NCBI RefSeq assembly: GCF_000019085.1
Contig: NC_010321.1
Span: 1,747,001 to 1,811,000 of the forward strand
Reading direction: 5' to 3'
Length of the DNA: 64,000 bases
From: Thermoanaerobacter pseudethanolicus ATCC 33223
GTDB taxonomy: Bacteria; Bacillota; Thermoanaerobacteria; Thermoanaerobacterales; Thermoanaerobacteraceae
Within the stretch, counting starts at the first letter, position 1; the number at the start of each line of letters is the position of its first letter. The notes below the pieces were generated by a model, which was not told where the DNA came from, did no database searches, and saw only the letters and a list, made by a program, of their open reading frames with translations. The position numbers and the translations under genes were made by a program. Shown here in pieces: positions 16,095-20,070 of the stretch.

Positions 16095-17084
16095 TTATTC
16101 CCCTTTTTCAAAATCACTTTCTTCTTCTTTTTCTTTATTAGACAAATTGACCAAACCCTGTTGTTTCAGGTAATTTATCATGTTATACATGTATTGCTGT
16201 TGCTCCTTTGTCAGCATAGATTTTAAATTGTCCAAAACTTTTAACTGCTGATCAGACAAGCCTTGAGGCAATAAATTCTTTTCTCCCTTTGGCAATTGCT
16301 GTTGTGTTTCTTTTTCATCACTTTCTTCCTCTTTTTCTTCAACTTCTATTTCTTTTATTTCTTCGTTTTTTTCTTCTTTCTCTTCTGCTATTCTTTCTTC
16401 ATGAAAATCTCTGGTCGCTTGTTGAGATTGTTTTTTCTCCTCTTTCATACTATTCATAATTCCTTCTGCTTTATTTAATACTTCCAATAATTTTATATTC
16501 TTTGCAATTTTATCAGTTTCTTCTATTTTTTCTTCCGGTATTATAGGCCGTATAGCCTCATAAATATCTACTATTTTATCAAAAATGTTATTTTTATCCC
16601 CTTCTTTTGTGTATTTTTCTAGTTTTTGTTGTAAATTTTTTAACGCCTCAAAGAATTTCAAAAATTTATCTATTACAATTTTCTTGTCTTCTGCTATGTA
16701 AGGTTTTATTGCTTTTAAAATCCCTATTTTGTCTACCTCAACTTTGTCTAATGCTTCAATTTCTTCTTCCGAAAGATTCACTAAATTTTTTTGTATCTCA
16801 ATTATTTCTGCCATTTTAGAAAAAATATCTACATAATACTGGTCTCTTTTGCTTAAATAGGGTTTTAGGCTTCCTACAAAATCTTTGCCTTTTGTTACCA
16901 CTTCATACAAATCAATTGTCGACTTTTTGTCTTCTTGTGGTGGCGATAACTTGTTTTTATCATCAGTACCTGTAGAAAGTGTAGTCTCATTTTTTTCTTT
17001 TTCTATACCCATCACTTGAAATCTCACAAAAGCTACTATCAAAAGTTCTACAGCGAGTATTTTTAATAAAATCTCCTTTTGCAA
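16095..17084 (-). CDS. Membrane-anchored helical repeat protein, function unknown
   Basis: I do not recognise this 329-residue protein. A TTG start spaced eight bases from GGGGG gives an N-terminal hydrophobic anchor (about residues 5-25, reading ILAVELLIVAFV). The rest is charged and helical. A segment of about 50 residues seems repeated: SLKPYLSKRDQYYVD, AIKPYIAEDKKIVID and AIRPIIPEEKIEETD all share a K/R-P core followed by charged residues and a long helix. A Glu/Lys-rich linker (about 225-260) precedes a last helical part with SMLTKEQQQYM. The anchor suggests an extracytoplasmic location. It stands alone between groES and the small hydrophobic genes. Confidence 0.7.
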   Translation of the reverse strand: MQKEILLKILAVELLIVAFVRFQVMGIEKEKNETTLSTGTDDKNKLSPPQEDKKSTIDLYEVVTKGKDFVGSLKPYLSKRDQYYVDIFSKMAEIIEIQKNLVNLSEEEIEALDKVEVDKIGILKAIKPYIAEDKKIVIDKFLKFFEALKNLQQKLEKYTKEGDKNNIFDKIVDIYEAIRPIIPEEKIEETDKIAKNIKLLEVLNKAEGIMNSMKEEKKQSQQATRDFHEERIAEEKEEKNEEIKEIEVEEKEEESDEKETQQQLPKGEKNLLPQGLSDQQLKVLDNLKSMLTKEQQQYMYNMINYLKQQGLVNLSNKEKEEESDFEKGE

Positions 17085-17126
17085 AACAAATTCCCCCTAT
17101 TTTTAATAATCTCTTACTAATATATG

Positions 17127-17161
17127 TAAGGGGCTAGTCTATTATTATAGACTGCCCCTTA
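17127..17161 (-). terminator. Possible terminator hairpin
   Basis: AAGGGGC and GCCCCTT enclose an inner AGTCTA/TAGACT stem, just downstream of the 36-residue gene. The T-rich side faces the plus strand, so its role as terminator for the minus-strand genes is uncertain. Confidence 0.5.
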
Positions 17162-17168
17162 TTTTTGT

Positions 17169-17279
17169 CTAATTTTTTTCCCAAATAATTATTCCTGGAA
17201 CAAATAGAAGTATTAAAATTATTATTATAAAAATCCAAAACCAACCTCCAACAAATCCTATTCCTTTTTCTTCGGGCAT
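17169..17279 (-). CDS. Tiny hydrophobic protein, WFW family copy 1 (36 aa)
   Basis: This short frame has a strong GGGAGGT site seven bases before its ATG. The product starts MPEEKGIGFVGGWFW, then one hydrophobic helix of Ile and Leu, then the FVPGIII motif and a charged end. It is a clear paralogue of the gene at 17840-17956: both share the G-W-F-W block, the helix, and LLFVPGII. A single membrane-spanning peptide is expected. The general shape resembles small hydrophobic sporulation proteins of Firmicutes, but I cannot assign a function. Confidence 0.75.
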   Translation of the reverse strand: MPEEKGIGFVGGWFWIFIIIILILLFVPGIIIWEKN

Positions 17280-17356
17280 AAATACTACCTCCCTTCAGAT
17301 AGGTAAATAATAGGGAAATAAATTTTTCATCTTTAGCTAATATATAATACGTAATT

Positions 17357-17551
17357 TTAAGAATTTGTGTTACCAAGATTAATACCTGTTAATGACCACA
17401 AAAATCGCTTTGCTTTTTTTCGCGGTTTTTCTTCCTGTAAAATTACAAGTATTAAAAAGAAAAACAGTAGACTTTCAAGCTCAAATCTTACATCCAGCAG
17501 CAAAGTTAAAATTACAAAAAAGAACAACAGAGTATCTCCAGAAAAAGACAT
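17357..17551 (-). CDS. Small hydrophobic protein, LLFFF family copy 1 (64 aa)
   Basis: The product contains two hydrophobic blocks, TLLFFFVILTLLL and SLLFFFLILVIL, separated by a short charged turn, and a basic tail. It is a paralogue of the 60-residue protein at 17623-17805, which has the same doubled LLFFF block. A GTGGAGTGAT ribosome site precedes the ATG. Two antiparallel membrane helices are likely. Function is unknown; location among similar tiny genes suggests a shared role, perhaps in sporulation. Confidence 0.65.
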   Translation of the reverse strand: MSFSGDTLLFFFVILTLLLDVRFELESLLFFFLILVILQEEKPRKKAKRFLWSLTGINLGNTNS

Positions 17552-17589
17552 ATATTATCACTCCACACATATCAAATTTATCAAATAAA

Positions 17590-17617
17590 AATGGCTCTAT
17601 CGCAGGATAGAGCCATT
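17590..17617 (-). terminator. Terminator after the 60-aa small protein
   Basis: AATGGCTCTATC and GATAGAGCCATT form a 12-bp stem with a 4-base loop, six bases after the stop codon, followed by TTTTATTTGAT on the minus strand. The symmetric stem could work in both directions. Confidence 0.8.
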
Positions 17618-17622
17618 CAAAA

Positions 17623-17805
17623 TTACTTGAGTTCATTGAAGAACCAATCAAAACCGCCGTCCATTATTATTACAAGGAGTATAAAGAAGAACAACAATGT
17701 CTCTAAAGACCATACATTAAGCTGGCTTCCACCAAGCGCTAATACAAGTATCAAGAAGAAAAACAGCAAATTGCTTTGCCCAAAAACTGAACTTGTTCCT
17801 GCCAT
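17623..17805 (-). CDS. Small hydrophobic protein, LLFFF family copy 2 (60 aa)
   Basis: The ATG follows AAAGGGGGAT. The product has two hydrophobic blocks, NLLFFFLILVLAL and TLLFFFILLVIIM, joined by a turn with Asn and Trp, and ends in GGFDWFFNELK. The doubled block and length match its neighbour at 17357-17551, pointing to duplication both within the protein and between genes. It lies 34 bp after the 38-residue WFW gene and ahead of a strong terminator. Confidence 0.7.
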   Translation of the reverse strand: MAGTSSVFGQSNLLFFFLILVLALGGSQLNVWSLETLLFFFILLVIIMDGGFDWFFNELK

Positions 17806-17839
17806 ATTGATCCCCCTTTAAACAATTTTCAATACCTAA

Positions 17840-17956
17840 TCAAGCTTTTGGTTCTTCAACAATAATCCCTGGGACAAACAACAAGATCAATAGTATGATG
17901 ATTATAATCCAAAACCATCCACATCCATATCCTGCTCCACTTTTATCTACTGGCAT
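17840..17956 (-). CDS. Tiny hydrophobic protein, WFW family copy 2 (38 aa)
   Basis: The ATG is preceded by AAAGGAGG. The product starts MPVDKSGAGYGCGWFW, has a run of Ile/Leu, then LLFVPGIIVEEPKA. The match to the 36-residue protein at 17169-17279 extends over nearly its whole length, which supports both as genuine genes. It is the first of the four tiny genes in transcription order. Upstream (17990-18015) lies an imperfect hairpin around GGTCTTTAAAGACC. Confidence 0.75.
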   Translation of the reverse strand: MPVDKSGAGYGCGWFWIIIIILLILLFVPGIIVEEPKA

Positions 17957-18117
17957 AAATAATTTTCCTCCTTTCAAGTCTCATCCTTTTCTATGTGGGT
18001 CTTTAAAGACCTACTACATAATATGATATAACTTCATACGGTGACACTTTTTAAATTTCCACTAACAAATTTTTATATTTCACATATTGTGTTAATAGCA
18101 TGAAAGGAGGTACGCTA

Positions 18118-19356
18118 ATGAATCTTATTCCAATGTTTGCTTTTTCTAAAATAGCAAAGGAAATTTATGTATCAAATAAAATCGATAAAAGGCTTTTAAA
18201 AAAAGCATTATATTTAAGAAGTGAATGTGTTCCTGTAATTTTGTATTCCCATTTATCTTATGACATTTTAAAAGAAAAAATCGAAAAAATGGGAGGAAGT
18301 ATAAAATTTGAACTACCAATCATAAAAGCCTGGTCAGTAAATTTACCTTGTGATAAATTGAAAAATTTCGCTACATTAAAAGGAATTCATTTTATAGCAG
18401 AAGACTCCGCTGTTAAGCTGCAGCTTTATATTGCCACTCAAGAAATCGCCTCTCGAAATGCGAACGATTTAGGCTACACCGGTAAGGGAGTAACAATTGC
18501 CTTTTTAGACACTGGAATATATCCTCACCCTGACTTTACCAAGCCTAAAAACCGCATAGTGGCATTTCACGATGTAGTAAATGGAAAAAAACAACCTTAC
18601 GATGACAATGGCCACGGCACTCATGTAGCTGGTGACGCTGCTGGAAATGGATATGCTTCTAATGGCAAATACAAAGGCGTAGCCCCAGAAGCTAATATAG
18701 TAGCAGTAAAAGTATTAGATGCCTATGGCAGAGGTTTATCCTCTGACATATTAGCAGGAATGCAATGGATTTTAGACAACAAAGACAAATACAATATACG
18801 GGTAGTTTCTCTGTCAATAGGTGAAACTCCTTCTCTTCCTGCTTTTTTAGACCCTTTGGTGAGAGGAGTAGATACTCTTTGGAGAAATGGATTAGTAGTA
18901 ACTGTTGCAGCCGGAAACTCAGGTCCTAATTACAACACAATAACTTCCCCTGGCACCAGTAAAAATGCCATAACTGTAGGAGCAGTAGATGACAAAAGAA
19001 CCTCCGACATAAGTGATGACGAAATAGCTCAATTTTCTGGAAGAGGTTCGCCTTATCTATACAAACCAGACATAGTAGCACCAGGTGTAAAAATAGTCTC
19101 TACTGCTTCAGAAAATGTACCTTTTGGTGCAGATGAAGTTACGATAAATAAAGCATATAGAACAGCAACAGGGACTTCTATGGCGACTCCAATGGCAGCA
19201 GGAGCAGCAGCTCTACTCCTTGAAAAAAATCCTAATTTGACTAATGTACAAATAAAAAATATTTTAAAATCGACAGCAATAAAAATTGACGATGCAGGTC
19301 TATGGACACAAGGCAGTGGAATGATAAATATAGAAGAGGCGTTAAAAAAAGTATGA
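18118..19356 (+). CDS. Intracellular subtilisin-like serine protease (S8, AprX-like)
   Basis: The ATG at 18118 has GGAGGT seven bases upstream and gives 412 residues; a frame opening at 18100 would overlap that site. No signal peptide is seen, so the enzyme is probably intracellular. An N-terminal propeptide-like part (about 1-100) precedes the catalytic domain. The triad is Asp131 in LDTGIYPHP, His166 in GHGTHVAG and Ser354 in TGTSMATPMA, with oxyanion Asn267 in AAGNSGP. It is the only plus-strand gene in the first 32 kb and is followed by a structured repeat. Confidence 0.92.
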   Translation: MNLIPMFAFSKIAKEIYVSNKIDKRLLKKALYLRSECVPVILYSHLSYDILKEKIEKMGGSIKFELPIIKAWSVNLPCDKLKNFATLKGIHFIAEDSAVKLQLYIATQEIASRNANDLGYTGKGVTIAFLDTGIYPHPDFTKPKNRIVAFHDVVNGKKQPYDDNGHGTHVAGDAAGNGYASNGKYKGVAPEANIVAVKVLDAYGRGLSSDILAGMQWILDNKDKYNIRVVSLSIGETPSLPAFLDPLVRGVDTLWRNGLVVTVAAGNSGPNYNTITSPGTSKNAITVGAVDDKRTSDISDDEIAQFSGRGSPYLYKPDIVAPGVKIVSTASENVPFGADEVTINKAYRTATGTSMATPMAAGAAALLLEKNPNLTNVQIKNILKSTAIKIDDAGLWTQGSGMINIEEALKKV

Positions 19357-19659
19357 GGGGGTTAACCCCTCATTTCAGTTTGTTCATAAAGCTAAAAATA
19401 TTCAAAGGAGATATTTTGCATCGTCACTCCGATGTTCCAAAGCGACAAAACTAAACTCGACCTTCGGGTTCCGGCAGGGTACCGGGCACATTCGACATCC
19501 TTGTCTTAGTGCCCGCCTCCGCCATCCGTGGCTACGGCCCTGCCTCCACCCTCGGTCTTGCTAAGTTTTGTTGCCGCTTTGTAACAAGTCACTCCTTATG
19601 CAAAATATCTCCTTTGCGAAAGTTTGTCAACAGTCTGAGTATGAGAGGTTAACCCCTTA
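19356..19659. repeat. Structured inverted-repeat element, copy 1 (~300 bp)
   Basis: This element fills the space between the convergent subtilase and hutP genes. The arms include a perfect 19-bp pair, CAAAGGAGATATTTTGCAT (19403-19421) and its complement (19598-19616). Inside are CAAAGCG/CGCTTTG, GGCAGGG (19473)/CCCTGCC (19538) and GGGCAC (19484)/GTGCCC (19509). The outer ends both carry GGTTAACCCC. The centre is GC-rich compared with its surroundings. A diverged copy lies at 52174-52540. No convincing protein is encoded. It could be a structured RNA or a fold-back mobile element. Confidence 0.8.
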
Positions 19660-20070
19660 TTTTAATGACCTATGTCCTAGTCCAATTGCCACTTCATTTA
19701 AGTTTAGCATCCCTACAGCAAAAAACACACAAACACAAAGATGCTCATCAGCATAGGCAATGCCTATTTTTCCACCTACATTAAGTCCCATAGCTTTGTT
19801 CATGACTTGTATAGCAGCCTCATGCGCAGCTCCTGCTACAGCTCCTTCTGCAGCGTGTGTGTCTTCTATAATTCCTTCTCTTTTAGCCGCTACTACCGCT
19901 CTTTCAATAATTTTAGATATAGAATTTACGTATTCTCCACCATAGTCAACAGCTGCAACTTTTACTCCTTGTTTCCAATATTTGTTTTTTAGTATTTCTT
20001 CCTCTTCTCTTGTAGACATGGCCATTTTTACAGCAATTCTGGCTACATCGATGCTTTTTAGTAGTTTCAT
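19657..20070 (-). CDS. hutP: HutP family protein
   Basis: The 137-residue protein resembles the HutP family of RNA-binding antiterminators, with helix REEEEILKNKYWKQG, GAAHEAAIQVMNKAMGL, and the C-terminal AYADEHLCVCVFFAVG and NEVAIGLGHRS. In Bacillus HutP binds histidine and Mg2+ and allows read-through of the hut operon. No histidine-degradation operon is nearby, so its RNA target is not evident. It is the last gene of an ogg-DUF554-hutP group (gap 11 bp). Confidence 0.78.
   Translation of the reverse strand: MKLLKSIDVARIAVKMAMSTREEEEILKNKYWKQGVKVAAVDYGGEYVNSISKIIERAVVAAKREGIIEDTHAAEGAVAGAAHEAAIQVMNKAMGLNVGGKIGIAYADEHLCVCVFFAVGMLNLNEVAIGLGHRSLK

Follow-up and report, generated by a model that had tools for sequence, protein, structure and literature searches.

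Between a subtilase gene and groESL in Thermoanaerobacter pseudethanolicus ATCC 33223, four very small hydrophobic reading frames lie side by side, raising the question of whether they are genes and, if so, what such a set could do for the cell. They were analyzed within a 64,000-nucleotide stretch of contig NC_010321.1 (here called the window) and compared with their counterparts in other genomes. At the level of sequence, this comparison establishes the genes, the selection acting on them, their synteny, and their promoters and terminators. The reading that we favor, with a probability of roughly 60%, is that of a late-sporulation gene cluster encoding tiny membrane proteins, made under sigma-K, for the spore envelope.

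Four tiny genes in two paralogous pairs

A first-pass annotation, made from the letters alone, described four open reading frames at positions 17169 to 17956, in the order WFW, LLFFF, LLFFF, WFW. This arrangement was borne out: all four (P4, P3, P2, and P1, counted from the subtilase side) lie on the minus strand and form two paralogous pairs (Table 1). The outer pair, P4 and P1, has in common a Gly/aromatic start, GWFWI (W-F-W-I), an isoleucine-rich span, and LLFVPGII, in line with the shared G-W-F-W and LLFVPGII that had been claimed, and the WFW proteins are built around a W-x-W-I-I-I-I-I core followed by an acidic tail. The inner proteins, P3 and P2, align at about 45 to 54% over ~40 amino acids with two LLFFF blocks in each, which agrees with the doubled block reported for them. 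From its ATG, P4 measures 38 amino acids, and an extension to 45 amino acids from a TTG is possible. The purine-rich ribosome site that had been claimed for each gene was found at 4/4, the weakest being that of P2 (GGAG). Scans of P1 to P4 against Pfam and NCBIfam returned no significant match.

By hydropathy, P4 and P1 each have one predicted membrane span; for P3 and P2, two short hydrophobic segments apiece are predicted. In the AlphaFold models of P3 and P2, which are of low confidence (pLDDT of 66 to 67), two helices occupy the hydrophobic segments and a further helix lies at the C terminus.

Table 1. Genes and putative regulatory elements of the cluster (window coordinates)
Feature	Position	Strand	Remarks
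Subtilase (Peptidase_S8), divergent	18118..19356	+	Always present; conserved upstream CATATT element
P4-P3 promoter, sigma-K-like	18018..18047	-	GTGTCAC - 15 nt - CATATTAT
5' leader inverted repeat GGTC-TTTAAA-GACC, conserved	17998..18011	-	Just past expected start site of P4-P3
P4, WFW-type, 38 aa	17840..17956	-	One predicted membrane span, Gly-rich N terminus, EEPKA tail
P3, doubled-LLFFF, 60 aa	17623..17805	-	Invariant MAGTSS start, two hydrophobic helices (predicted)
Intrinsic terminator between P3 and P2	17589..17618	-	Stem kept via paired changes in Thermoanaerobacterium
P2, doubled-LLFFF, 64 aa	17357..17551	-	Basic KPRKKAKRFLWSL tail
P1 promoter, sigma-K-like, conserved	17344..17371	-	AACA - 16 nt - CGTATTAT
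P1, second WFW-type, 36 aa	17169..17279	-	
Hairpin after P1, end of P1 transcript	17130..17159	-	Overlaps 329-aa gene promoter; stem re-paired in Thermoanaerobacterium
329-aa gene promoter, sigma-E-like	17119..17145	-	ATA - 16 nt - CATATATT
329-aa charged protein	16095..17084	-	One N-terminal membrane span; invariably the next gene

Conservation and purifying selection

P3 was present in 20 of the 20 Thermoanaerobacteraceae genomes, which cover three genera, and so was a WFW protein. Start codons, frame, ribosome sites, and lengths are kept across the relatives of P1 to P4, and the four frames thereby passed the test on which the first-pass annotation had made them depend, namely, conservation of frame and ribosome sites in related genomes. 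Pooled pN/pS values equal 0.19 for P4, 0.23 for P2, and 0.31 for P1; the value of 0.26 for P3 is inflated by one mis-picked T. wiegelii sequence. Within P3, the string MAGTSS.FG..NLLFFFLILV is kept without exception. Judged by these comparisons, P1 to P4 are real genes under purifying selection, far beyond chance. Chance open reading frames, which short length and low complexity might suggest, are ruled out with near certainty by the kept frame, starts, and ribosome sites and by a pN/pS of 0.19 to 0.31 in three genera.

The distribution of the inner pair is narrow. In a scan of about 85,000 species, with one genome per species, P3 was confirmed only in Thermoanaerobacter, Caldanaerobacter, and Thermoanaerobacterium; the matches include a bin labeled "Clostridia bacterium" with the same gene order. 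No LLFFF pair was found outside Thermoanaerobacteraceae.

Genomic neighborhood and variation of the set

In every main locus from the three genera with enough sequence to show gene order, the order is fixed: divergent subtilase, P4, P3, P2, P1, 329-aa gene, groES, groEL. A search for the block in related genomes, as proposed at first pass, thus recovered it from subtilase to groESL in Thermoanaerobacter, Caldanaerobacter, and Thermoanaerobacterium. The 329-aa protein, which has no known domain, evolves faster than its tiny neighbors P1 to P4, yet it is always present.

As a set, the four genes vary more than the first-pass annotation implied. P1 is degenerate in Caldanaerobacter (L104), was not found in T. 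thermocopriae (L102), is split by a frameshift in the bin of one relative (L101), and has two copies in genus g2 and some Thermoanaerobacterium.

Several further rearrangements were observed. Two Thermoanaerobacterium genomes carry second copies of the cluster elsewhere (L066, 2101-2829; L070, 2754-5382), in the order WFW, LLFFF, partial LLFFF (partial P2), WWIW. The P3 and P2 genes of T. wiegelii are separated by a group II intron (Rfam matches at L069 4481-4790 and 9446-9522), and a second D1-D4 match set follows groEL and a tRNA in the same locus. Outside the cluster, a candidate TwoAYGGAY RNA (RF01731; window 19431-19588, minus strand) scored 35.8 bits, below the gathering score of 43; it adjoins a HutP-family gene at 19657-20070.

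Putative mother-cell promoters

In the aligned gap between subtilase and P4 of 13 genomes, GTGTCAC and CATATTAT are invariant at 15/15 positions, whereas the spacer between them is invariant at 0/15. The putative P1 promoter follows the pattern AACA-N15/16-CGTATnAT across relatives; its -10 box starts with CG, not CA, in most genomes and reads CATATAAT in one relative. The 329-aa gene is preceded by ATA-N16-CATATAT, and upstream of the subtilase conservation of the -35 AC is not strict. These sites were judged against the mother-cell consensus of Clostridioides difficile, in which CATATTAT is described as the canonical -10 box of mother-cell promoters, CATATAAT together with AC marks a promoter of sigma-K, and sigma-E promoters have ATA as their -35 motif (PMC3789822). 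In Bacillus subtilis, the gap of sigma-K promoters is 14 to 16 nt (PMC517825). The cluster displays CATAnnAT-type -10 elements combined with AC (sigma-K) or ATA (sigma-E) at -35, the P1 -10 element being mostly CGTATnAT.

Sporulation control of the cluster, as judged from promoter sequence, is therefore well supported. The first-pass annotation had raised the possibility of sigma-E/K-controlled membrane peptides, and such control is supported by the deeply conserved mother-cell-type promoters and by the presence in the genome of sigK, above its NCBIfam cutoff, and of SpoIVA. When the whole genome was scanned for the exact P4 promoter pattern, six sites emerged but no regulon, because five of them are copies of two repeated sequences.

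The P4 promoter also fits a weak sigma-A pattern (9/12), and this reading of the site is possible, although weaker than the mother-cell reading. Small single-span subunits are common in membrane complexes, and together with the sigma-A match this would suit a vegetative, sigma-A-driven role as small subunits of some ordinary transporter or membrane enzyme. With no partner enzyme gene nearby, and with promoters of mother-cell type ahead of P4, P1, and the 329-aa gene, we regard such a function as unlikely.

Transcription units

A single four-gene operon is ruled out, because a conserved terminator splits P3 from P2 and P1 has its own promoter. In Thermoanaerobacterium, the stem of the P3-P2 terminator is re-paired (GGCTCTATC/GATAGAGCC versus GGTCCTATC/GGTAGGACC). 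From this terminator and the hairpin after P1, it follows that P4-P3 form one short unit and P1 another. No promoter of its own was seen for P2 when its upstream region was judged by eye, and P2 probably depends on read-through of the P3 terminator.

WFW-like proteins beyond the family

A widened WFW profile matched 40 of the 398 sampled genomes of the phylum (about 10%), in 31 of 266 genera. Most of the matches, MPEAKFDGWWWWIIIIIIIIFLFCFLFPWN among them, are tiny ORFs in their own right that have ribosome sites; a minority of those listed sit inside long frames and may be false. Mother-cell-like -10 elements of the form CRTANNAT occur upstream of 8/23 distant WFW-type genes, compared to 10/89 longer control ORFs from the same loci (P = 0.011) and to about 1.2 expected in shuffles. 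This enrichment is taken as supporting evidence only, since the motif was chosen after P4 and P1 had been seen and two of the eight matches come from one genus. SpoIVA is found in 38/40 WFW-bearing genomes versus 336/398 overall (P = 0.03), a weak co-occurrence given how common SpoIVA is across the phylum.

A third WFW paralogue, MSDKHKHHENQWIWIIIIILIILLFVPGIIICEEPKNTI, stands alone elsewhere in the genome (L061 5890-6009; G000:C1 near 763900) and is kept in related genomes; CATATTATA lies upstream of this gene. Another clostridial genome (L075, 380-1842) contains a tandem array of at least six genes for tiny hydrophobic proteins rich in Gly, Tyr, and Trp; at least one of these genes is preceded by a mother-cell-like -10 element.

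Comparison with known small proteins

The YjcZ family (PF09680, including the SscA/SscB-type proteins of B. subtilis) resembles the WFW proteins in its tiny size, its Gly/aromatic N terminus, and its one hydrophobic stretch; a single hydrophobic segment in a tiny protein, as in YjcZ_2, characterizes P4, P1, and the third WFW paralogue. In addition, B. subtilis yjcZ is sigma-K controlled (PMC517825), and the annotation of sscA and sscB names them as proteins of spore assembly and germination (PMC5743806); at P4 and P1, putative sigma-K control was read from promoter motifs. However, YjcZ_2 (PF09680) did not match P1 to P4 even at an E value of 10, and when PF09680 was run against whole genomes, 0/20 exceeded the Pfam cutoff, the weak matches lying elsewhere than the cluster. 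Membership in the YjcZ family is thus not supported by sequence, and the resemblance is one of type rather than of family. The WFW proteins differ from YjcZ in their Trp/Ile core and acidic tail, and we know of no YjcZ-family counterpart of the two-helix LLFFF proteins.

SpoVM, which acts at the forespore membrane, is likewise a very small mother-cell sporulation protein. It forms an amphipathic surface helix, whereas P1 to P4 are predicted to span the membrane.

Two other kinds of small hydrophobic protein have to be weighed. Late mother-cell lysis or permeabilizing peptides, holin-like and made under sigma-K, would free the spore by weakening the membrane of the mother cell. The promoters at P4, P1, and the 329-aa gene would serve this function equally, the spans are short and strongly hydrophobic, and paired paralogues could tune activity. 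Yet pore peptides usually need less sequence constraint than the extreme conservation of P3 (invariant MAGTSS and LLFFFLILV), and beyond the subtilase the cluster holds no lysis enzyme; we consider this role quite improbable. Type I toxins with an antisense RNA are more improbable still. Those of the Firmicutes (TxpA/BsrG, YhzE) are also small hydrophobic single-span proteins, Trp-bearing tiny hydrophobic proteins are typical of them, and the B. subtilis YhzE family is listed among type I toxins (PMC6563280). At P1 to P4, the Rfam scan gave no antitoxin RNA match (one chance histone-stem match was returned), and sigma-70-like sites on both strands are no commoner than in shuffles, although an antisense RNA of a novel kind may exist. 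The genes also keep a single chromosomal location under purifying selection and have mother-cell promoters, and a search for phage carriage confirmed no relative in viral contigs.

Proposed role in the spore envelope

If the cluster belongs to late sporulation, as we favor, sigma-K RNA polymerase in the mother cell would use separate promoters to transcribe P4-P3 and P1, and P2 would be transcribed mainly by read-through past the P3 terminator. We infer that the four proteins are expressed and reside in a membrane, where P4 and P1 would cross once, P3 and P2 would fold as two short hydrophobic helices, and the basic tail of P2 may hold the membrane surface. Produced from short terminated messages, P1 to P4 would insert into that membrane around the forespore which faces the mother cell. 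Our guess is that Trp and Phe-rich faces let them pack against each other and that they end up in the spore envelope, with a small structural or assembly function modeled on the one envisaged for the tiny YjcZ/SscA proteins of Bacillus. The first-pass annotation had suggested that such a set may coat or seal a spore membrane or may form a membrane peptide complex.

More tentatively, we hypothesize that across spore-forming Clostridia the mother cell makes a large, unmodeled class of Trp/Ile-rich tiny membrane proteins, of which the WFW proteins form one branch, and that in Thermoanaerobacteraceae a private two-helix LLFFF partner joins them in building a defined membrane lattice around the spore. 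We hold this wider proposal to be possible, if rather doubtful.

Clostridial spore envelopes have few recognizable proteins in common with those of Bacillus. The two conserved families described here, which comprise tiny membrane proteins, have putative mother-cell promoters, and lack a Pfam or NCBIfam model, are direct candidates for the missing spore-envelope parts. Since the WFW class reaches about one in ten of the sampled genomes of the phylum, a test of one such protein could inform many species.
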